Source: Holdemania sp. Marseille-P2844 (GTDB taxonomy: Bacteria; Bacillota_I; Bacilli_A; Erysipelotrichales; Erysipelotrichaceae). From it: 64,000 nucleotides of DNA. The notes under the pieces were generated by a model. The model did not search any database and had not been told where the DNA came from. It saw only the letters and a list, made by a program, of their open reading frames with translations. Shown piece after piece: positions 9,312-37,531 of the stretch (positions are counted from its first letter, which is position 1; each line of letters begins with the position of its first letter). Made by a program: the position numbers and the translations under genes. The DNA lies in NCBI RefSeq assembly GCF_900120005.1, contig NZ_LT635453.1, positions 186,001 through 250,000 on the forward strand, given 5' to 3'.

Positions 9312-12044
9312 GTGCGCTTTGTTTCTTGTTAATCTCCATAGAAATATGGAACAAAGCAAGACAGATTTCTAATGAAATCTGAACTCTATATTCGATTTGA
9401 CAGGGGAAGTTCCTGTCTGACCCGGTGTGACGGGTTACAAAAATTCTAATTTCCGACGTGCATTTCATTGTGACAGGTGAATTGTACGAAGCTCGGTGAA
9501 AAGCGGGGAAGAAGCTTGAGACAGCTTGGATAACCGCAAGAAGCTATAAATTAGTCATGTCCAGTATATTTTGTTGCAATCGACAAAAGTCCTGAGTGTA
9601 AGGCTCGTAAACGATGGGATGATAACACAGCCATCCTCCCCATGTGGGGTGCTGTCGCCGTTGAAATATGTCTTGGTGGAAAACGGCAGAAAACCGGAAT
9701 GGTCGAATGTCACTGGCAATCAATCACACAAGCCAGTGATGGCAGCCGGGTCAGAGGGACGGGCTAAAACTAAATGTAAAGCTAGAATATAGGGAACAAA
9801 GGAACCGTGGACGGCGCTCCGGTACATGCCGGTGCAAGTAAGGTGTCACCCTTGCCGCACAGGTAGGAAATGACCTGTTAATCCACGGGGCATCAGCCCG
9901 TAGTAGTGATGAAGCTCCTGTAATGGGAGTGGAGCGAAGGGGCATAGTCAATATGGATTCGTATGTGAACAGAAAGTCGAGGAAGCCGTAGGCAAACCTG
10001 ACTAAAACCAGAAACACAACCTCGGAAGGAGGTGGTGCGTATGGCACAACAATTCGACTGCCCAAAAACTGAAACTGAATTACGCACTTTGTTAGACGAA
10101 TTGTATCAACAAAGCAGGAAAGCCAGACAGGAAGGGAAATACCCTGCCTTCAAAGGCTTACTGGAAATTATGTCAGCAGAAACAACGATTGTGACTGCAA
10201 TTCACAATATCAAGAGCAATCATGGGAGTGATACTCCCGGTGTCGATAACAAGACTATGCGGCGGGAATATCTGCAAAAACCCTACCGATGGGTTATTAA
10301 CGACATCCAGAGAGCTTTTGAAAAGTTTGAAGCACAGAAAATACGCAGGAAATATATTGACAAACCGGGGAAAAAGGAAAAGCGTCCGTTAGGTATTCCT
10401 ACAATACGGGACCGCATTGTACAGGAATGTATGCGTATCGTGTTGGAACCCATTGTAGAAGCGCTATTCTTTGAACATTCTTATGGTTTCCGCCCAATGA
10501 GGGATACGGCAATGGCGCTGGAAAGACTGAATTTCATCACTTTCCACACAGGTTATTACTGGTTTGTGGAAGGAGACATCAGTAAATGTTTCGACTATAT
10601 CGACCACGCTATACTTCTTCGCAGACTATATCATTTGGGAATTAAAGACCGGCGTGTGCTTCAAATCATCAAACAAATGCTGAAAGCAGGCGTTCTTGAT
10701 GAATGTGAAGTAAATGAAGAAGGCACTATGCAGGGCGGGATTATCAGCCCTCTGCTTGCAAATGTCTATCTCGACATTATGGATGAATGGGTAACAAAAC
10801 AGTGGGAACTGAAAAACACCACCCACAAATACAATCAGGATTCCGCAAAAAGAAGGGCATTGAAAAAGACCAGACTGGTGCCGGGATTCCTAGTGAGGTA
10901 TGCCGACGATTTTGTAATTATTACAGATAGCCGGGAACATGCTGAATTTTGGAAATCATCGTTAAAGGAATTTCTGGAAACAGAGATGAAGCTGACATTG
11001 TCCAAAGAGAAAACACTGATTACGGATGTAAGAAAGAAACACGCCACATTTCTCGGATACGAGTTTAAGGTAGTAAAGGGGAAAGGCGAACATGGTTATG
11101 TTACCAGAACACAGCCGGACAGAGAAAGACTGAAACGCAAAGTTGATGTGATAGCGGATAATATTAAGAAAATCCCACGGGATACAAGCCGTGAAAAGCT
11201 GATTGATGAAATCAATCGGATTAACAGCCAGATACGAGGGGTCATCCAGTATTATCAATGCTGCACATGGGTTAGCGTGAGCATGGACAAATATGGCAGA
11301 AAGATACAACTTGCAGCGAGCCGCCGGCTCAAACAGTATAAAGGGAAATGGATTCGAGCCAAAGATACGCAGAACCTTCCCCGAATACACCAGAATTACA
11401 GGCAAAAGATACCTTCTGTCAAATACCGTGACATCTATGTTGGAGTTACATCGCTCACGTTCTGTAACTGGCAGGAAACGAGAGGGAAAAATCCAAAAGA
11501 AACGCCCTATACTGCCGAAGGACGGGAAATCAATTTCAGGCGCACTAAGAAGAAGCGCATACAAGCCAGATTGGATGATGTGTATTCAGAAAATGCGTCA
11601 ATCGCTGTCTTAAAGGGTAAATGGGGCTATCTGAACAATTTTGAGTTTGTCATGAATAAGGCATACGCCCTGAACCGTGACCGGCTCAAATGCAGGGTTT
11701 GCGGAAAATGGTTGATAGACCATGCTCCATACACCCATAGAATTAACCCATATCTTCCGCTGGATAAAGTAAACCGTGTCAACAACCTTATATCAGTACA
11801 CAAGAAATGCTCTATGGCGATTAACACGCCGGGCATGGACATCAGTGATTATGAAAAACAAGTGCAAAAGAAGATTTTAAGTTATAGGGAAAAACTGGTA
11901 GCTTCACATACACGCAACAACTAATCCGTATTGATGGAGCGCCGTGTGCGACGAAAGCCGCACGCACGGTGCGACGTGGGGGAAAATCCGTCCTGACTAC
12001 CATATCGGGAGATATGGCAAAAGCGGCGGATTACCTATCACAAT
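9312..12044 (+). mobile_element. Group II intron inserted in virB4 (2.73 kb)
   Basis: The 5' end is gtgcgctttg, matching the group II consensus GUGYG. The 3' end (…ctatcacaat) fits the usual AY ending. A domain V-like helix, gagcgccgtgtgcgacgaaag with its complement, is at 11937-11972, followed by a domain VI-like stem. The intron carries a maturase gene at 10041-11924. Removing exactly 9312-12044 joins VQD to QVWNRVT in frame, giving the sequence expected of VirB4 homologues, which fixes both splice sites. The roughly 730-base 5' part is intron domains I-IV and holds no other gene. Confidence 0.95.
10041..11924 (+). CDS. ltrA: Group II intron reverse transcriptase/maturase
   Basis: This 627-residue multifunctional protein contains a reverse transcriptase with the YADD active site at 287-290 (RYADDFVII) and the MQGGIISPLLANVYLD block. 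A maturase domain X follows (INSQIRGVIQYYQCCTWVS). The C-terminus is HNH-like and starts CRVCGKWLIDHAPYTHRINP. The last conserved region reads VHKKCSMAIN where HNH nucleases normally keep a CH..IH pattern, so the endonuclease may be weakened. The ATG at 10041 follows aaggaggtgg. It promotes splicing and retrohoming of the host intron. Confidence 0.95.
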   Translation: MAQQFDCPKTETELRTLLDELYQQSRKARQEGKYPAFKGLLEIMSAETTIVTAIHNIKSNHGSDTPGVDNKTMRREYLQKPYRWVINDIQRAFEKFEAQKIRRKYIDKPGKKEKRPLGIPTIRDRIVQECMRIVLEPIVEALFFEHSYGFRPMRDTAMALERLNFITFHTGYYWFVEGDISKCFDYIDHAILLRRLYHLGIKDRRVLQIIKQMLKAGVLDECEVNEEGTMQGGIISPLLANVYLDIMDEWVTKQWELKNTTHKYNQDSAKRRALKKTRLVPGFLVRYADDFVIITDSREHAEFWKSSLKEFLETEMKLTLSKEKTLITDVRKKHATFLGYEFKVVKGKGEHGYVTRTQPDRERLKRKVDVIADNIKKIPRDTSREKLIDEINRINSQIRGVIQYYQCCTWVSVSMDKYGRKIQLAASRRLKQYKGKWIRAKDTQNLPRIHQNYRQKIPSVKYRDIYVGVTSLTFCNWQETRGKNPKETPYTAEGREINFRRTKKKRIQARLDDVYSENASIAVLKGKWGYLNNFEFVMNKAYALNRDRLKCRVCGKWLIDHAPYTHRINPYLPLDKVNRVNNLISVHKKCSMAINTPGMDISDYEKQVQKKILSYREKLVASHTRNN

Positions 12045-25808: not shown

Positions 25809-25835
25809 ATGTTGCATAGCATGCGTATTAGATAA
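25809..25835 (+). CDS. Leader peptide MLHSMRIR upstream of the Cfr/RlmN-like gene
   Basis: This eight-codon frame (25809-25835, TAA) sits eight bases after taaaaggagg (25791-25800), a strong ribosome site. Its coding sequence (atagcat… gataagcat) is complementary to atgcttat…atgctat downstream (25883-25904). That pairing encloses the terminator-like hairpin at 25856-25872. The layout is that of drug-sensing leader peptides in which ribosome stalling changes RNA folding. No homologue is assumed. Confidence 0.65.
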   Translation: MLHSMRIR

Positions 25836-25855
25836 GCATTGAAAAAAAGGATTTT

Positions 25856-25880
25856 CCCATTTTCAACATGGGCTTTTTTG
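25856..25880 (+). promoter_or_regulatory. Attenuator hairpin 1
   Basis: cccat/atggg stem with loop tttcaac, followed by c and six T (25874-25879). It lies between leader peptide and KTR gene and is nested in the alternative leader pairing. Confidence 0.6.
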
Positions 25881-25986
25881 TCATGCTTATTTTGCGGATG
25901 CTATACAAAAAACTAACGACGTATAGATATAGTATAGACATAGTGCAAGCTATGCCTTAGTTTTGTTGTACTGCTCTGTGCATTAT

Positions 25987-26031
25987 AAATGCAGGTCAAT
26001 GCTCATGTTGAGGATTGACCTGCATTTTTTT
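25987..26031 (+). promoter_or_regulatory. Attenuator/terminator hairpin 2
   Basis: The 14-bp near-perfect stem aaatgcaggtcaat/attgacctgcattt is followed by T residues, 26 bases before the KTR gene start. It looks like a full intrinsic terminator inside the leader, so downstream expression needs readthrough. Confidence 0.75.
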
Positions 26032-26056
26032 GTGTAAAAAGGACGAGTGAAATATA

Positions 26057-26258: not shown

Positions 26259-27242
26259 ATGAAACGTTTACCTAAATATACGCCTGCGGAAGTACGGAAT
26301 GATCCATACGGATTTACTTACAAAGAAATGTCGGAAGTTATTGGCGAGAATGAAGCAAAAGCCTTATATGAAGAATTATATAAGCAATTACCACGCAAAA
26401 AAAATCTATCAATGTTGGTAAAAAATATTTGCAAAAGCAGTGATACTGAAAAGTATGTTTACGAACTGAAAGACAACAAATACATTGAAACGGTTTTTAT
26501 CAAGCGGCGAGATGGTGGAACTGTTTGCGTGAGCACACAAGTCGGTTGTCCTGTTGGTTGTATTTTTTGTGAGTCCGGGCGAAATGGCTTTGTTCGTAAT
26601 CTAACATCGTCAGAAATCGTACAACAGATTATATTGTTGCGTCGAAAAGTAAACCGTATCGTTTTTATGGGTATGGGAGAGCCTTTATTCAATTATGACA
26701 ACTTGATAAAAGCAATCCATATTCTCCGAGATAGATATGGGCTCAACTTTCCAACCGACGGCATTACCATATCAACAGTTGGTCCGGTCGATCAATTAAA
26801 AAAATTGCGCGAGGAACATCTTAAAATTCAGTTGACAATATCTTTACACGCAGCAACACAATCTGCAAGAAATCGTATTATTCCTCACATGCGCATATAT
26901 GCTATTGAAGATGTTGTTAAGCAAGCCTTATCCTATTCTGAAAGGCATAATCGCAAAATTGTCTTTGCGTATTTGCTTTTACCGGGTATAAATGACCGGC
27001 CCTCAGATGTAAGACAACTTGCAAAATGGTTTCGGGGCAAAAAAGTTATGATTAACGTGTTACAATACAACCCAACAAGCAATTCAAGAATTAAAGCACC
27101 ACAGAAACGGGAAATAGTTGCATTCAAACATCAATTAGAGCAAGCAGGACTTGAAGTTACTATGAGAGTTTCTCATGGCAGAGAGATTAACGCGGCTTGT
27201 GGACAGTTAGCTAACACATATAATAAATTCAAAAAAAAATGA
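26259..27242 (+). CDS. Cfr/RlmN-family radical SAM 23S rRNA methyltransferase-like protein
   Basis: This 327-residue protein has the radical SAM cluster motif C97-x3-C101-x2-C104 (CPVGCIFC), the FMGMGEPLFNYDNL block, SLHAATQSARNRIIPH and the C-terminal Cys314 in EINAACGQL that is catalytic in RlmN/Cfr. These enzymes methylate A2503 of 23S rRNA: RlmN at C2, Cfr at C8 (drug resistance). The NAACGQL ending and short length leave the choice open. A mobile, AT-rich, leader-controlled copy points to a resistance-type role, but this is inferred. The ATG follows aagaaagga. Confidence 0.85.
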   Translation: MKRLPKYTPAEVRNDPYGFTYKEMSEVIGENEAKALYEELYKQLPRKKNLSMLVKNICKSSDTEKYVYELKDNKYIETVFIKRRDGGTVCVSTQVGCPVGCIFCESGRNGFVRNLTSSEIVQQIILLRRKVNRIVFMGMGEPLFNYDNLIKAIHILRDRYGLNFPTDGITISTVGPVDQLKKLREEHLKIQLTISLHAATQSARNRIIPHMRIYAIEDVVKQALSYSERHNRKIVFAYLLLPGINDRPSDVRQLAKWFRGKKVMINVLQYNPTSNSRIKAPQKREIVAFKHQLEQAGLEVTMRVSHGREINAACGQLANTYNKFKKK

Positions 27243-28379: not shown

Positions 28380-28837
28380 TCTTTTAGCCCATGCGGGGAG
28401 CGTGTCCCCTTTCCACGCTTCCCGTTATGGGCTATTTGTCGTTCCGCAAAAGCATATCCGCTGTTGATGTGCTTTTGCAGGCCGACAAAGCCTATTGTTC
28501 TTTGACAAAGAAAGCGGCCTTTGGTGCGCAGCATAACAGGCAAACGGGTACATTCCGTCTGTACCGAGCCAGTCGGCGGGTACGCCATGACAGCTTTTCC
28601 CCATAGGGGAAAAGCCGAGCGAGAACTACCGCGCCGTAAAACAGGTTTAGCAGCTTGTGGGCGACGACATACAAGGCGGCACAATGATACTCCCGCGTTG
28701 AACACCCTCAAAGTATTGCGCGGCGCACCCATAAGCATGGGCCGGGGTGAAACTCCCGTGAGGTTGCAGCTAACAACCGCCCGTTTTTGCCTTTTGACGA
28801 ATATAGTTTATCCATACAGGAAAAGGAGGTTTTTCTA
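28380..28837 (+). other. Structured non-coding region before the recombination module
   Basis: No convincing gene is seen. A long hairpin at 28386-28435 pairs tagcccat.gcggggagcgtg with its near-complete complement. A perfect 10-bp stem gcttttcccc/ggggaaaagc with loop ata lies at 28593-28615. The rest is GC-rich and rich in short stems. It could be an untranslated regulatory RNA or processing region between the regulator and integrase genes. Confidence 0.5.
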
Positions 28838-29033: not shown

Positions 29034-29039
29034 TATAAT
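29034..29039 (+). promoter_or_regulatory. Candidate -10 box of the integrase gene
   Basis: A perfect TATAAT lies 50 bases before the integrase start. No good -35 is seen. Confidence 0.4.
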
Positions 29040-29088
29040 GATAGCAACACATTATACCTGTTTATTCGGCTGTCGGAAAGGAGGACTA

Positions 29089-31245
<2,157 letters not shown>

Positions 31246-31299: not shown

Positions 31300-32769
31300 T
31301 CAGCGTTCCTCTTGCTTTCGATGATCTTTTTTCTGGTTGCTCTGCTCGGCATGGCATCCTTTTTCCACGCAGGCGTGAATGTGATAAATCTTCTGGTGTT
31401 CTTCACGGATAGCTTTGAATTTTGCATAGGTTTCTGCATGAGCCTTTTCAAGCGCTGTATACTCCTTGTCTAAAAGCTTTTGGTCGTGCTTGCCGTCGGG
31501 GCATGCCTCCAAGAGCTTTCGCCTTACGGCGTAGTACTGCTTCAATTCCTTTTCGTGTTCTGCCTTGTACTTCGCCTTCGCCTTATCGAACTTGATTTTC
31601 TGCAAGCCGTCCACAATCGGTTTCAGATCTCTCAGAACGGAAAGGTATTCGGGAACCTTGCGAATTTCTTTCATACGGGTGACTTCCTTATCCATGGTGA
31701 CTTTCAATTCATCCACGGTGTTCTTCAAATCAGACACACGGCTTTCCAAATCCTCGATGGTGTAAATCTCATGGGCTTTGAGATAGTTTGCCATCAGGTT
31801 CAGTTCTTTCAGATTGTTGACCCTGGCTGTCTGGGAATAAGCCTTTGCGTTACGCATATCAAAATATCTCTGCAGCGGAATGATGACGGGATCGGATTGC
31901 GGCTTATCCAGCTCAGCCTTGATCTCCTTGATGGCTTCAAGGAGCGCCGACAGATTCTTACGGAGATTGCGAATAAAGGCATTGGTGGCTCTGATCCAAC
32001 GATTAAACTCGCCCTTTTCAGTTTTAATTCCTTTCTTCTCCATGGCTCGGACGGTGGAGCCTTCGTGTCGTGTGGGTAGCAGCTCTACGCCTTGGCGTTC
32101 ATAGCTGCGATGGTCGATGCGAACATCCAAGCCCTTTTCTTCAAACTTGGCGTTGCACATCACTGCCCATTGCTCACGCCAGAACTCCAAAGTTTCAGCA
32201 GAGCCCCAATCGGTAGTGGGAACGGCGTTGAACACATAATCACCTTTGCCATCGGGGATGCGGTTGCCGTTTTCATCAAGCACATACTCTCGTCTTTGCT
32301 TCAAACCCCATTTGCCGTTTTGCTCGATAGGACGGATTGGACAGAGGAAGTGGAAGTGCGGATTATTGATACCACCTTCTTCTCGCTCCGGTTCGTGAAC
32401 GGCAAAGTCCACCACCATGCCACGGCTGACAAAATGCTCGGTGAGGAATTGTCTGGCAAGGGCGATATTTTCTTCCTGGCTAAATTCATTCTGAAAGGAA
32501 ATATCGAAGCTGTAGGCAAGCTGCGCTTTCTTTCCTTTCTCTGCTTTCTCAACTGCGTTCCATAAAGTTTCCCGGTCTGCATACTCTCGTGGCGCATGGG
32601 GTGGCAGAAAGATTTCTGTATAAATCACGCCGCCCTTATTGGTGTAATCGCTGTCCTCACCGTAATAATCGCTGTGCAGTTTTTCGCCTGCCCGGTAGGC
32701 AGCGGATGCCACAACCGATTGCCCCTCGCTGCGTTTGATCTGATCTACATGGAAATGATATAAAGCGAT
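31300..32769 (-). CDS. mobA: MobA/MobL (MobQ) relaxase
   Basis: This protein of about 489 residues opens with ALYHFHVDQIKRSEGQSVVASAAYRAGEKL, the classic MobA/MobL N-terminus with the relaxase Tyr region. The metal-binding motif is NNPHFHFLCPIRPI. The C-terminal part is a long coiled coil. It should nick the oriT at 33317. The frame matching the family starts at codon ATC (32767-32769), placed 7 bases after aaaggagg. No ATG, GTG or TTG lies between the upstream stop and that point, and the first standard start (GTG 32712) would remove the conserved HFH segment. Confidence 0.85.
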   Translation of the reverse strand: MALYHFHVDQIKRSEGQSVVASAAYRAGEKLHSDYYGEDSDYTNKGGVIYTEIFLPPHAPREYADRETLWNAVEKAEKGKKAQLAYSFDISFQNEFSQEENIALARQFLTEHFVSRGMVVDFAVHEPEREEGGINNPHFHFLCPIRPIEQNGKWGLKQRREYVLDENGNRIPDGKGDYVFNAVPTTDWGSAETLEFWREQWAVMCNAKFEEKGLDVRIDHRSYERQGVELLPTRHEGSTVRAMEKKGIKTEKGEFNRWIRATNAFIRNLRKNLSALLEAIKEIKAELDKPQSDPVIIPLQRYFDMRNAKAYSQTARVNNLKELNLMANYLKAHEIYTIEDLESRVSDLKNTVDELKVTMDKEVTRMKEIRKVPEYLSVLRDLKPIVDGLQKIKFDKAKAKYKAEHEKELKQYYAVRRKLLEACPDGKHDQKLLDKEYTALEKAHAETYAKFKAIREEHQKIYHIHACVEKGCHAEQSNQKKDHRKQEER

Positions 32770-32771
32770 AC

Positions 32772-33098
32772 TTACCCCTCCTTTGCTCGTCTAACTTTTG
32801 AGTCGTGGTTGATCTTCATGCGGTGCACCAACTTCTGTATTTCTTCCTTGTGGAAGATATATTCCAGAAGCTCCATCACCTCGGTGATGTCCAGTTCCTT
32901 GATCTCCGGTGCGATACTTTCCAAAGTTCCTGCGATGGTGCAAAGTCTGTGAGTGCGGCGCTTGCGTTCGCCGTCCACAAAATACTTCTGGCGATTTTCC
33001 AGCCGAGTGATTTTGTGGGTGAGCTGTTCAATCTCCTTTTCGTTTTTCTCTTTTTCAGCTCGGAGCTTTTCAAGCTCGGGGTTAGATGTGTATTCCAT
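32772..33098 (-). CDS. DUF3847 family protein
   Basis: This 108-residue protein is mostly coiled coil (LEKLRAEKEKNEKEIEQLTHKI) followed by a basic segment and LDITEVMELLEYIF. It matches DUF3847, the usual partner gene before MobA/MobL relaxases in Firmicutes transposons. It may be a relaxosome accessory. It is two bases from the relaxase start. Confidence 0.8.
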   Translation of the reverse strand: MEYTSNPELEKLRAEKEKNEKEIEQLTHKITRLENRQKYFVDGERKRRTHRLCTIAGTLESIAPEIKELDITEVMELLEYIFHKEEIQKLVHRMKINHDSKVRRAKEG

Positions 33099-33330: not shown

Positions 33331-33934
33331 TAAACTAAGGGTTAAAATCGCTTTCGCCGTTCTACCCGAATGTCGTTCCTGCCCGGGAGTCTCACCCCAG
33401 CGTTGCTTCGCTCATGTCATCGCAAAGTCATATCCCATTCGGACGGTCATTTAGTTGTTGGATGTAGAAGAAAACAAAAAGAGCCGATTACACAGAGCAC
33501 CAAGAATCGGCGGGAGCATAGCTCTCGCTTCAAAGTGATGTTCTATGTAATCGGCTCTGAAAATTCAAAGTCGGGTTCTGCTTTCTACAGCTCCTGCCAA
33601 CAAAACCAAAGGCGTGGTGGAGCAGTTCGGCACTTCCGGTGTGCCGATACCGTGTCGGGTGAAACCGACTTATGGTGGAACATTGGTATTCAGTTGTTTA
33701 TGTAGCGGATCACCGCTGTGCCACCATTATACAGATACATCACTTGACCGTCAAGTTTCTGAATGTCTCTCACTATATTCAGAATTTCAAAGAGCAGTTT
33801 TCAACGGGATCGAAAAAAAGATCCCTCTACTGGTTAGGATATTTAGGAGCGAATTATCAACGGTTTTTGAAAGCCTTTCTTCATATACCTCCAGAAAAAA
33901 CTTTCACATTCGCACCTTGCACAGAAGAATTTAC

Positions 33935-34134
33935 TTTCAAGTGGAGCCGGTGAGAAACGCTTTTTGTCCATAGTTGTTTTCAAATGGTAGCCGGGGAAAC
34001 CAAACTTTTTATGCGTGCGTCGTTTGCAATTTTTCAAAATGTTTCTTCAAGTGGTAGCCGACGGGATTTGCGTTTTGGGGAGTGCCCACAGAAAAAATCT
34101 CTCCCAGTGGTAGCCGACGAGAAAGGCATTTTTA
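33935..34134 (+). repeat. Four dispersed direct repeats (GTGGTAGCCGACGAGA type)
   Basis: The units begin near 33935, 33977, 34046 and 34103. They share tcaagtggtagccg-acgaga followed by a GC and a T-run (gcttttt, actttttat, gcgttttg, gcattttt). Spacing is about 42-68 bases. Confidence 0.75.
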
Positions 34135-34165
34135 GAATCATTTCAAGAAAAAATTCCAAAAAAAT

Positions 34166-34362
34166 AATTCTGCCCAAGTTGGACAGAATTTTCAAAATCA
34201 ACTTCCCGACAACTTGTCGGGAAGAAAAACCCAACCTCCAACCAAGTTGGTCGGAAGTCCAAAATCCAACTTCTGCCCAACTTGGGCAGAAGTTAAAAAT
34301 CACTTCGCCGTAACTTGCGGAGAAGTGAAAATTGCAACTTCGACACAGGTTGTGTCGAAGTT
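34166..34362. repeat. Array of six evenly spaced palindromes
   Basis: Palindromes of 23-27 bases lie at 34166-34190, 34202-34224, 34234-34258, 34268-34294, 34301-34327 and 34336-34362, with start-to-start period 32-36. The consensus is acttc-n5-aacttg-n5-gaagt, separated by A-rich spacers. Stem sequences differ between units but change on both arms (for example tgccc/gggca, cgaca/tgtcg), which indicates conserved structure. Confidence 0.85.
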
Positions 34363-34380
34363 AAATATTCGCAAAAGAAG

Positions 34381-34412
34381 AAAGGCACTAACCGCATCAG
34401 TTAGTGCCTTTT
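34381..34412 (-). terminator. Terminator at the end of the hsd operon
   Basis: Stem aaaggcactaac/gttagtgccttt with loop cgcatca, 12 bases after the hsdR stop. It is symmetrical and could work in both directions. Confidence 0.75.
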
Positions 34413-34423
34413 GTGAATTGTGC

Positions 34424-37400
34424 TTACTTGTTACTGTCTTCCGCAAAAGATTCCCCAGCGTTGACCAGCCCGAAATACTTTTCAAAGAATGCTTTCAGTT
34501 TTTCAATAACTGTCTGCTTCTTTTTATCACGTGAACCACCGCCACCAAAACGGGAGACGGGCGGCATCAGACGGTCAACATCTGTGCCTGTTGTTTTGAG
34601 TACGCCATCACGAAAAGCGTTTTCAACAAACTTTCTGGTTTCTTCAGGCTTCAACTTTTCTTCTGCGATCAAGGCCTGAATATCGGTTTCACGCTGTTCT
34701 TTTACAAAACGCTGCCAATCTGCATTGACATCGGTTTTGGTGTTGATAGTAGCAATAAAGTTCTCGATCAGCTCTTTTTTCGATCTGAGCTGCAAACTCG
34801 ACTTAATCGCCTTATCAATCGCAACGAGGATTTCTTTGTCTTCGCAGTTGCCGTCATGGTATTTCGCAACCAGCATCAGAATATAGTCGATGTTGACTTC
34901 AACCTGTTTGACAAGTTCCATTTCAAAGACAACATCATCCATGATGCTGTCTTTGCTTCCCGGCTTCGGCTTGATCTCATCGTACACATCGTGGTATGTA
35001 CCAGTGTAGTCTTGGAAATCGATAGGAGACAAAATTTCGTTTCCGGCAAAGCGGTCAAAAGCTGACAGGATATTTCTCAGACGGAGAATATTACCGAACA
35101 GAACAATAAAATCTTTTTTATTCTGCTCGCCGATGATAGGCTGCCCCAATGGGTATTTCTGCAGTAGCTCTGCGATACGCTCTTCGTAGCCTTTCTGCTC
35201 ACGTCCCTTGTCGTCAACACAGCCATAGTAATAGTCTTCGTAGGATTTCAGAAGAACAATGCCATTGGCTTCTTTGTCGCCGAATAAGGCGATGGCTTCG
35301 TTTGTCTCTTTTTCAAGATCACGGAAACAGACAATATTACCAAAGGTCTTAACGGAGTTCAGGATGCGGTTGGTTCTTGAAAACGCCTGAATCAGACCAT
35401 GCATTTTCAAGTTTTTGTCTACCCAAAGGGTGTTGAGTGTCGTTGCATCAAAGCCCGTCAAGAACATATTGACCACGATAAGCAAATCAACTTCACGCTT
35501 TTTCACTTTGTCAGAGAGGTCTTTGTAATAGTCCTGGAAGCCCTTGCTGGATGTGTCAAAGTTGGTCTTGAAAGTCTTGTTGTACTCGTCAATCGCCATG
35601 TCCAGAAAATCACGAGAACTCTGGTCAAGTCCATCGGTATCAAAACTTTCATCATCCAAGATGCCATCTGCGCTATCTGCTTCGTTGGGGGCAAACGAGA
35701 AGATGGTGGCAATCGTCAGATCACGATGCTGTTCTGCAATCTGCTTTTTCAGTTCCAGATAGTATTTTTGGCAAACGGAGATGGAGCTGACTGCAAGCAT
35801 GGAGTTGAAACCATTCACACGCTGACCCTTAAGACTGTAATAGGAGTTTCGCATAGTCTTTTGGTCAAAGTGTTCCAGAATGTACTTCACAACTTCGGAT
35901 ATACGTTCCTGAGAAGCAAGGGCTTCCTCGGTATCAATAGCAGCAACTTGCTTATCCTGTTTTCCGTCCTTTTGCTTTACCGTATTGATATAGTCAATGC
36001 GGAACGGCAAAACATTTCCGTCATTGATGGCGTCAACGATGGTGTAGGTATGGAGTTTATCACCAAATGCCTGCTCAGTAGTTTTCAGATTTGGATTTCC
36101 GCCAGTACCTGCATTGACCGAGAAAATCGGAGTGCCCGTAAAACCAAAGATGTGATAGTTTCTAAAGTATCTGTGTACTTTAACAACCTTTTCACCTTTT
36201 TTGATCTGACCGCCCACAATTCTCGTATGCATATCACCGAACTGGCTTCTATGGCATTCATCAAACACCAAAACAATATGCTTATCCCTAATGGGATGCA
36301 TGGGGTTCTTCTGAATAAAGACATCCAACTTCTGAATTGTAGTTACAATAATTCGAGAAGTAGAGTCCTCAAGCTGCTTTTGCAGAATCGCTGTGCTCTT
36401 ATTGCTGTTGGCAGCACCTTTTTCAAATCGGTCATACTCTTTGATGGTCTGATAGTCTAAGTCCTTGCGGTCAACAACAAAGAGTACCTTGTCAATGTAC
36501 GGCAAGTTGGTAGCGAGTTGTGCCGTTTTGAAAGAGGTGAGGGTTTTACCGCTGCCCGTAGTATGCCAAATGTATCCGCCTGCTTCGATCTTTCCGGTTT
36601 TCTTGCTGTTGGAGGATGTCTCGATTCTGTTCAAGATGCGTTCTGTTGCAACGATCTGATAAGGACGCATGACAAGCAGCAATTCCTCAGATGTAAACAC
36701 GCAGTACTTTGTTAGAATATTCAGCAGAGTATGCTTGGCAAAGAACGTTTTTGTAAAGTCAACAAGGTCTGCAATGACTCTGTTGTTACCATCTGCCCAA
36801 TAGGAAGTGAACTCAAAACTATTGGAAGTTTTCTTGCTGTGTTTTTTGCTGCTGCCGTCATTCTCCTTGATATGGCTTGCTCTCGTGGTATTGGAATAAT
36901 ATTTCGTGAATGTGCCGTTGGAAATGACAAAAATCTGCACATACTCGTAAAGCCCGGAGCCTGCCCAAAAGCTGTCTCTCTGATAGCGGTTGATCTGGTT
37001 AAATGCTTCCTTGATCGCAACACCACGGCGTTTCAGCTCCACATGAACCAACGGCAGACCGTTCACAAGAATCGTCACATCATATCGGGTGTCGTGATTG
37101 CCGGCACCTTCTTCATACTGATTGATGACCTGCAAACGGTTGTTATGGATATTCTTTTTATCAATCAGATAGATGTTTTGAGTTTTGCCATCTTCGCAAG
37201 TCAGGTTCTGTACATAATCTTCCTGAATCTTACGAGTCTTTTCTACGATACCTTCGTTGGCATTGGCAATCTTAGATTTGAAGAATGTCTCCCATTCTTT
37301 GTCGGTGAAGCTGTACTGGTTAAGGCGCTCAAGCTGCTTGCGAAGGTTAAGCACGAGATCTTCTTCGTTGTGAATGGACACGTACTCATAACCTTGTTCG

Positions 37401-37531
37401 CCAAGCATTTTGATGAAGGCTGCCTCCAAAGCAGCTTCACTCTGATACGCATCGGAACGTTTCGCTTGCGGCTCATATTCAGTTACAACGGTACTTTCAT
37501 TGGTTGAAAGCACAATGTTATATGTACTCAT
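34424..37531 (-). CDS. hsdR: Type I restriction enzyme, R subunit
   Basis: This 1035-residue restriction/translocase subunit has an N-terminal PD-(D/E)xK nuclease: D151 and E165-L-K167 in VHVELKRRGVAI. The SF2 helicase motor has Walker A TGSGKT at 325-330, DECH at 424-427, GFTGTP and the VDKNLKMHGLIQAFSRTNR region. It is the last gene of the hsd operon and appears intact. It cuts unmodified DNA far from the HsdS recognition site after translocation. Confidence 0.95.
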   Translation of the reverse strand: MSTYNIVLSTNESTVVTEYEPQAKRSDAYQSEAALEAAFIKMLGEQGYEYVSIHNEEDLVLNLRKQLERLNQYSFTDKEWETFFKSKIANANEGIVEKTRKIQEDYVQNLTCEDGKTQNIYLIDKKNIHNNRLQVINQYEEGAGNHDTRYDVTILVNGLPLVHVELKRRGVAIKEAFNQINRYQRDSFWAGSGLYEYVQIFVISNGTFTKYYSNTTRASHIKENDGSSKKHSKKTSNSFEFTSYWADGNNRVIADLVDFTKTFFAKHTLLNILTKYCVFTSEELLLVMRPYQIVATERILNRIETSSNSKKTGKIEAGGYIWHTTGSGKTLTSFKTAQLATNLPYIDKVLFVVDRKDLDYQTIKEYDRFEKGAANSNKSTAILQKQLEDSTSRIIVTTIQKLDVFIQKNPMHPIRDKHIVLVFDECHRSQFGDMHTRIVGGQIKKGEKVVKVHRYFRNYHIFGFTGTPIFSVNAGTGGNPNLKTTEQAFGDKLHTYTIVDAINDGNVLPFRIDYINTVKQKDGKQDKQVAAIDTEEALASQERISEVVKYILEHFDQKTMRNSYYSLKGQRVNGFNSMLAVSSISVCQKYYLELKKQIAEQHRDLTIATIFSFAPNEADSADGILDDESFDTDGLDQSSRDFLDMAIDEYNKTFKTNFDTSSKGFQDYYKDLSDKVKKREVDLLIVVNMFLTGFDATTLNTLWVDKNLKMHGLIQAFSRTNRILNSVKTFGNIVCFRDLEKETNEAIALFGDKEANGIVLLKSYEDYYYGCVDDKGREQKGYEERIAELLQKYPLGQPIIGEQNKKDFIVLFGNILRLRNILSAFDRFAGNEILSPIDFQDYTGTYHDVYDEIKPKPGSKDSIMDDVVFEMELVKQVEVNIDYILMLVAKYHDGNCEDKEILVAIDKAIKSSLQLRSKKELIENFIATINTKTDVNADWQRFVKEQRETDIQALIAEEKLKPEETRKFVENAFRDGVLKTTGTDVDRLMPPVSRFGGGGSRDKKKQTVIEKLKAFFEKYFGLVNAGESFAEDSNK

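Follow-up and report, generated by a model that had tools for sequence, protein, structure and literature searches.

The 64,000-nt stretch of Holdemania sp. Marseille-P2844 DNA analyzed here, referred to as the window, holds a row of six different palindromes beside the relaxase gene of a mobilizable element, and the question is what reads these palindromes and what they do for the element that carries them. The genes of the carrier that matter here are the following.

29038..30762, plus strand: large serine recombinase of the mobilizable element (Resolvase, Recombinase, DUF4368)
31300..32712, minus strand: MobQ relaxase of the array-bearing mobilizable element (NF041496 above cut-off; PF03389)
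32772..33098, minus strand: DUF3847 protein adjoining the relaxase (PF12958)
34424..37531, minus strand: HsdR of a type I restriction system, cargo across the array from the relaxase (HSDR_N, EcoR124_C)

The array sits between the relaxase module (31300-33098, minus strand) and the restriction gene (34424-37531, minus strand); the same HsdR neighbor, at 98% identity, is found beside the array in a homologous element (L039). A DNA search of a plasmid collection returned no relative of the array locus. The initial annotation had placed the palindromes next to a MobQ oriT; the MobQ relaxase is confirmed by its profile matches, while the oriT was not located.

Other repeats surround the array. Immediately before it, at 33938-34117, are four direct repeats around CAAGTGGTAGCCG, ~43-67 bp apart, which are missing from several homologous elements (alignment gap 33863-34160). 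Between the relaxase module and the array, a 23-nt inverted repeat at 33480-33558 (AGAGCCGATTACA...TGTAATCGGCTCT, with a 33-nt loop) is a candidate oriT or terminator, and a 12-nt perfect inverted repeat at 34381-34411 (AAAGGCACTAAC/GTTAGTGCCTTT), directly after hsdR, resembles the terminator of that gene.

The array itself is composed of six palindromes, P1 to P6, to which no strand is assigned.

34166..34190, no strand: P1, parS-like palindrome AATTCTGCCCAAGTTGGACAGAATT, half-sites TGCC / TGTC, 11/12 pairs
34201..34225, no strand: P2, parS-like palindrome, half-sites CCGA / CCGA, 11/12 pairs
34234..34258, no strand: P3, parS-like palindrome, half-sites CAAC / CGAC (CRAC), 10/12 pairs
34269..34293, no strand: P4, perfect parS-like palindrome ACTTCTGCCCAACTTGGGCAGAAGT, half-sites TGCC, 12/12 pairs
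34302..34326, no strand: P5, parS-like palindrome, half-sites GCCG / TCCG, 10/12 pairs
34337..34361, no strand: P6, parS-like palindrome, half-sites GACA / GACA, 11/12 pairs

Each palindrome is 25 bp long, the starts are 33-35 bp apart with spacers of 8-10 bp, and the arms are complementary at 10-12 of 12 positions. Dinucleotide shuffles of 34140-34380 (n=2000) gave a mean of 0.02 such palindromes and a maximum of 1, i.e., the six palindromes at 34166-34361 that the initial annotation had described are real, as are the inner stem bases that it saw varying on both arms; its period of 32-36 bases was right as to regularity and slightly too wide in range. The conserved parts are the outer bases and the center, and the inner arms of all six differ, so that the near-identical repeats expected of a CRISPR or iteron array are not found.

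The family to which these palindromes belong is described by ACTTC-N4-CAANTTG-N4-GAAGT. A survey pattern in which ACTTC, CAA, TTG and GAAGT were fixed and both inner N4 were left free was matched in three surveys, of related genomes (17 of 98), Lachnospiraceae (44 of 299) and Clostridia (22 of 291), and a reversed control pattern gave 0 matches in all three. The matches are found in three settings.

In the first, the palindrome occurs as a single copy, nearly always within a parB-like gene of a clostridial parAB operon, where it is read in frame as TSxQ[V/L]xxK in the loop preceding the helix-turn-helix. The palindrome-bearing parB lies directly behind parA, i.e., the site is associated with parAB genes as is a parS, and plasmid records hold the same palindrome-bearing genes. 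The location of a parS of B. subtilis within spo0J is a parallel. One parB-like gene (L058, 1006-2088) contains three different tandem palindromes in its reading frame (TSSQLGTKL, TSGQIGPKF, NSAQLGRN), which indicates that arrays can grow within a gene too.

In the second setting, five integrative and conjugative elements (ICEs), two of them in Faecalicatena contorta and the others in the genomes G163, G250 and G267, each harbor about 15-20 dispersed copies, most of which lie between genes and which occupy corresponding positions in both F. contorta ICEs. The inner arm is GGGC or GGGT in nearly all of these sites. IncC plasmids have 14 dispersed parS sites, and the F. contorta ICEs resemble these plasmids and the KorB operators of IncP plasmids in that one ParB/KorB site is present in many copies over a conjugative element.

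The third setting is that of the window. Mobilizable elements of several lineages, which differ in their relaxases and serine recombinases and lack parB, bear 3-21 copies gathered in arrays in which the inner arms are mixed. This mixture of specificities sets the arrays apart from the IncP and IncC sites, which are of a single specificity. Elements homologous to that of the window have the same sites in roughly the same order, and identity to the window in these homologous arrays is 93% for the outer arms, 87% for the center, 76% for the inner arms and 71% for the spacers. Several arrays (L059/L072, L004/L012, L076, L053, L081) are apparently split or flanked by cargo, as if it had been inserted between palindromes.

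The parB genes that contain their own palindrome made it possible to ask what the variable bases follow. When 86 distinct parB genes were compared, N4 of each palindrome was found to vary with residues in the DNA-binding domain of the encoded ParB. In a scan of 255 ParB alignment columns, a single recognition-helix residue came out on top for N4 base 3 once the residues encoded by the palindrome were set aside (z=18.8; next column 5.6). It also leads for base 4, while for bases 1-2 the associated positions are the beginning of the first helix in the helix-turn-helix and a second recognition-helix residue. When each 70%-identity cluster was represented by one sequence (44 lineages), Arg/Lys at the helix position against G at base 3 gave counts of 14/0/0/30 (p=9e-12), Asp against G at base 4 gave 4/0/0/40, Asp at the first helix against G[T/C] at bases 1-2 gave 11/0/1/32, and Lys against GG gave 8/0/3/33. 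Furthermore, among ParB pairs that are 40-70% identical outside the domain, N4 is shared in 88-91% if the three key residues agree and in 1-2% if they do not. Column scan, lineage-controlled tables and matched pairs thus all find that a site matches the specificity residues of its ParB, as is expected of a parS.

A covariation of this kind could in principle reflect constraint on the protein alone, which is ruled out by the synonymous positions. Within the palindrome, Thr is encoded by ACT in 82/82 cases (18% elsewhere in the same genes), Gln by CAA in 85/86 (31%) and Val by GTT in 60/60 (30%); because these synonymous positions are fixed, it is the DNA and not the peptide that is under selection. 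In a predicted ParB structure, helix 169-176 has key residues at its beginning and helix 180-191 contains the others, and the model matches structures of Noc, ParB and KorB, including those of DNA complexes (Z 13-16). By sequence, the code residue of the first helix aligns with Q162 of Caulobacter ParB, which contacts parS (PMC7383237). Because N4 covaries with residues of the helix-turn-helix, the palindromes are best described as parS-like ParB-binding sites, and their recognition by ParB is strongly supported by these sequence data.

The code also holds outside the set of genes from which it was made. From the inner arms of the dispersed sites, the ICEs with GGG[C/T] sites were predicted to encode a ParB with an N...K...Q key, and they do encode a ParB with this key; in each ICE, the protein with the ParB domain has Asn and Lys where the code requires them. 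Genes for ParBs with another site center or outer arm had been left out when the code was made, and they mostly obey it: Arg/Lys goes with G at base 3 in L288, L290, L164 and L181, Asn with CC in L291, L297, L308, L163 and L179, and Lys with GG in L186. Exceptions among them are L289 and L314 (Asn with GACA) and, partly, L292; L284 is a further exception to the code.

Two further explanations of the palindromes are to be weighed against this code. The first is that pairing itself is selected, in RNA or single-stranded DNA (ssDNA) hairpins that serve in priming, as ssDNA promoters or in RNA regulation. In favor of this, the arms change on both sides and pairing is kept. However, G.T and A.C mismatches in the arrays are balanced in number and show no consistent strand, from which it follows that neither strand is preferred; the bias of G.U over A.C expected of a structured RNA or hairpin array is absent. 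Among 90 dispersed ICE sites, roughly half have a mismatch at pair 9/17, whereas the neighboring pairs hardly change (pairs 6 and 8 are constant), which is understandable for an operator with an unread position and cannot be explained by a hairpin. Moreover, N4 follows the ParB residues, and Rfam gave no family at the array and none on the palindromes of one ICE. Selection for hairpins is therefore very improbable, and a ParB dimer of changing specificity that reads the half-sites symmetrically accounts for the two-sided changes. The suggested roles in single-strand initiation or as ssDNA promoters are not supported, whereas the third role suggested at the time, that of iteron-like protein sites, came near the mark, since ParB proteins are predicted to bind the palindromes as double-stranded DNA. 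Copies of a terminator were considered separately and ruled out, as the palindromes have no T-runs.

The second explanation is a functionless selfish palindromic repeat, like the Rickettsia palindromic elements, whose pairing is maintained by hairpin-templated repair. Such a repeat would fit the in-frame insertions in coding loops and the tandem copies within a single parB gene (L058), but it predicts neither that N4 should follow ParB residues nor that sites should keep their positions in diverged ICEs, and the recognition code contradicts it; we regard it as highly unlikely.

If the palindromes are sites for ParB, the next question is which ParBs those in the window would serve. Matches to sites in known parB genes exist for P1 and P4 (TGYC), P2 (CCGA), P5 (GCCG-like) and P6 (GACA), i.e., the half-sites TGCC, CCGA, GCCG and GACA match ParBs of other genomes. 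The arms of P1 correspond to the TGCC and TGTC classes of parB genes, and the complete 25-mer of P4 has an identical copy within parB genes of two genomes (G060 and G086). The N4 of P2, a site retained in most orthologous arrays, is also found in the parB genes L159, L215 and L188, each of which encodes Arg at the code position, and the GCCG arm of P5 is the N4 of L156, L229 and L269, which encode Asp there without exception. The GACA arm of P6 is the site in the parB of L289 (F. contorta) and of L314 (Subdoligranulum plasmid OY725878). P3 is retained in orthologous arrays, and when a ParB with the site of P3 was specifically looked for, only an array was found. Over all arrays, 61 of 96 perfect sites have an N4 seen in a parB gene, compared to 29.5 +- 4.6 in the null. 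The window array is thus predicted from sequence to place at least five specificities side by side. P1, P3 and P5, with their unequal half-sites, may be weakly bound or in decay. Elsewhere (L033, L039, L055, L065), array sites have arms of different ParB classes (e.g., GTGC/TCGC or GCCG/GGTG) and are possible dual half-sites.

No parB of this family was found in the window or in 32 array loci by a search that found its positive control; elements whose arrays are on short contigs may encode a parB farther away. The sole such ParB in the host genome, encoded elsewhere (L290), reads TGGC, and the array has no TGGC. Because the window has no parB, the six sites would serve the ParBs of other plasmids and ICEs in the cell.

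Taken together, we consider it quite probable that the array brings together parS-like sites of several specificities and with them recruits the ParB(-ParA) machinery of co-resident elements, for partition of the carrier and/or to destabilize these elements; a carrier that has no partition genes of its own probably uses or upsets the inheritance machinery of others. In the proposed mechanism, ParB dimers would read each site as double-stranded DNA through the helix-turn-helix, the outer ACTTC/GAAGT and central CAANTTG being common to the family and the inner N4 of each half-site selecting the ParB. The ParB of a visiting or helper plasmid or ICE would bind at the matching site of the array and load there in a CTP-dependent manner, upon which ParA would distribute the mobilizable element to its presumed benefit, and competition from the array site may destabilize the other element (centromere incompatibility).

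Hijacking of parS by a mobilizable element is already known from SGI1, which carries two copies of the IncC parS and no matching par genes, and for which experiments showed that ParB is bound, SGI1 stabilized and the helper expelled (PMC10954446). Like SGI1, the element in the window, with its MobQ relaxase and recombinase, is a mobilizable element whose sites are predicted to serve the ParBs of other elements and that has no parB beside them. It differs in that SGI1 has two sites of one specificity for one helper family, whereas the present array combines 6 sites (up to 21 in other arrays) of mixed specificities, and in that it is found in Bacillota and belongs to an unrelated 25-bp site family.

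The array could also be mainly a weapon that draws ParB away from plasmids or ICEs entering the cell and causes their loss, a centromere-incompatibility defense beside type I restriction. The restriction cargo adjoining the array, the many different specificities instead of copies of one, and the destabilization of the helper by the parS copies of SGI1 (PMC10954446) are all in line with such a role, but an integrated, single-copy element that offers each specificity once competes poorly and SGI1 exerts both effects together; a predominantly defensive role is thus possible and rather unlikely. Alternatively, ParB bound at the array could regulate transcription of the relaxase or recombinase, or transfer, in response to the presence of a helper. 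Arrays are often found near relaxase or recombinase genes, and the ParB fold is common to KorB, a plasmid regulator; nevertheless, the position of the arrays relative to promoters is inconstant and some arrays are split by cargo, which makes regulation doubtful. In sequence, a regulatory or purely hostile role would look the same as hitchhiking on partition.

Compared to other known sites, the palindromes resemble the parS of Spo0J-ParB and the NBS of Noc in being read by the same helix-turn-helix, with the one code residue that aligns with Caulobacter Q162. However, parS and NBS are 16-bp sites that differ at 2 positions (PMC7383237), whereas the present family has 25 bp, of which four in each half-site are variable. 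The iteron arrays at plasmid origins share the regular spacing of tandem protein-binding repeats, but these are near-identical direct repeats for one initiator, located beside its gene, in contrast to palindromes of different specificities with no adjoining reader gene. In the open-access literature searched, no polyspecific parS array, 25-bp site family or recognition code of this kind was found, and the ParB-parS family, which is widespread in gut Bacillota, appears to be uncharacterized.

The recognition code could make it possible to predict the matching centromeres of plasmids and ICEs from their sequence, and cell biologists could employ orthogonal ParB/parS pairs to label DNA. The arrays suggest hitchhiking elements with sites for the partition systems of many hosts at once, which would turn the single case of SGI1 into a general strategy. 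In its broadest form, this would mean that in gut Clostridia and Erysipelotrichia mobilizable elements maintain changing collections of parS sites, with one site for each circulating ParB specificity, by which the partition machinery of an arriving element is captured or upset, and that ParB/parS pairs follow a readable amino-acid-to-base code; we see the chances for and against this generalization as evenly balanced.

Some features elsewhere in the window concern the surrounding mobile DNA. A radical-SAM methyltransferase resembling RlmN/Cfr is encoded on the mobile segment at 26259-27242 and scores under all curated cut-offs (RlmN, 277.6 of 290 bits; Cfr, about 199 of 530); its gene is preceded by a match to Rfam sRNA_1300 at 25811-26032. 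Two group II intron matches are located within 9379-12044, and a match to the Rfam 'pemK' RNA motif is found at 28681-28761, among mobile-element genes.
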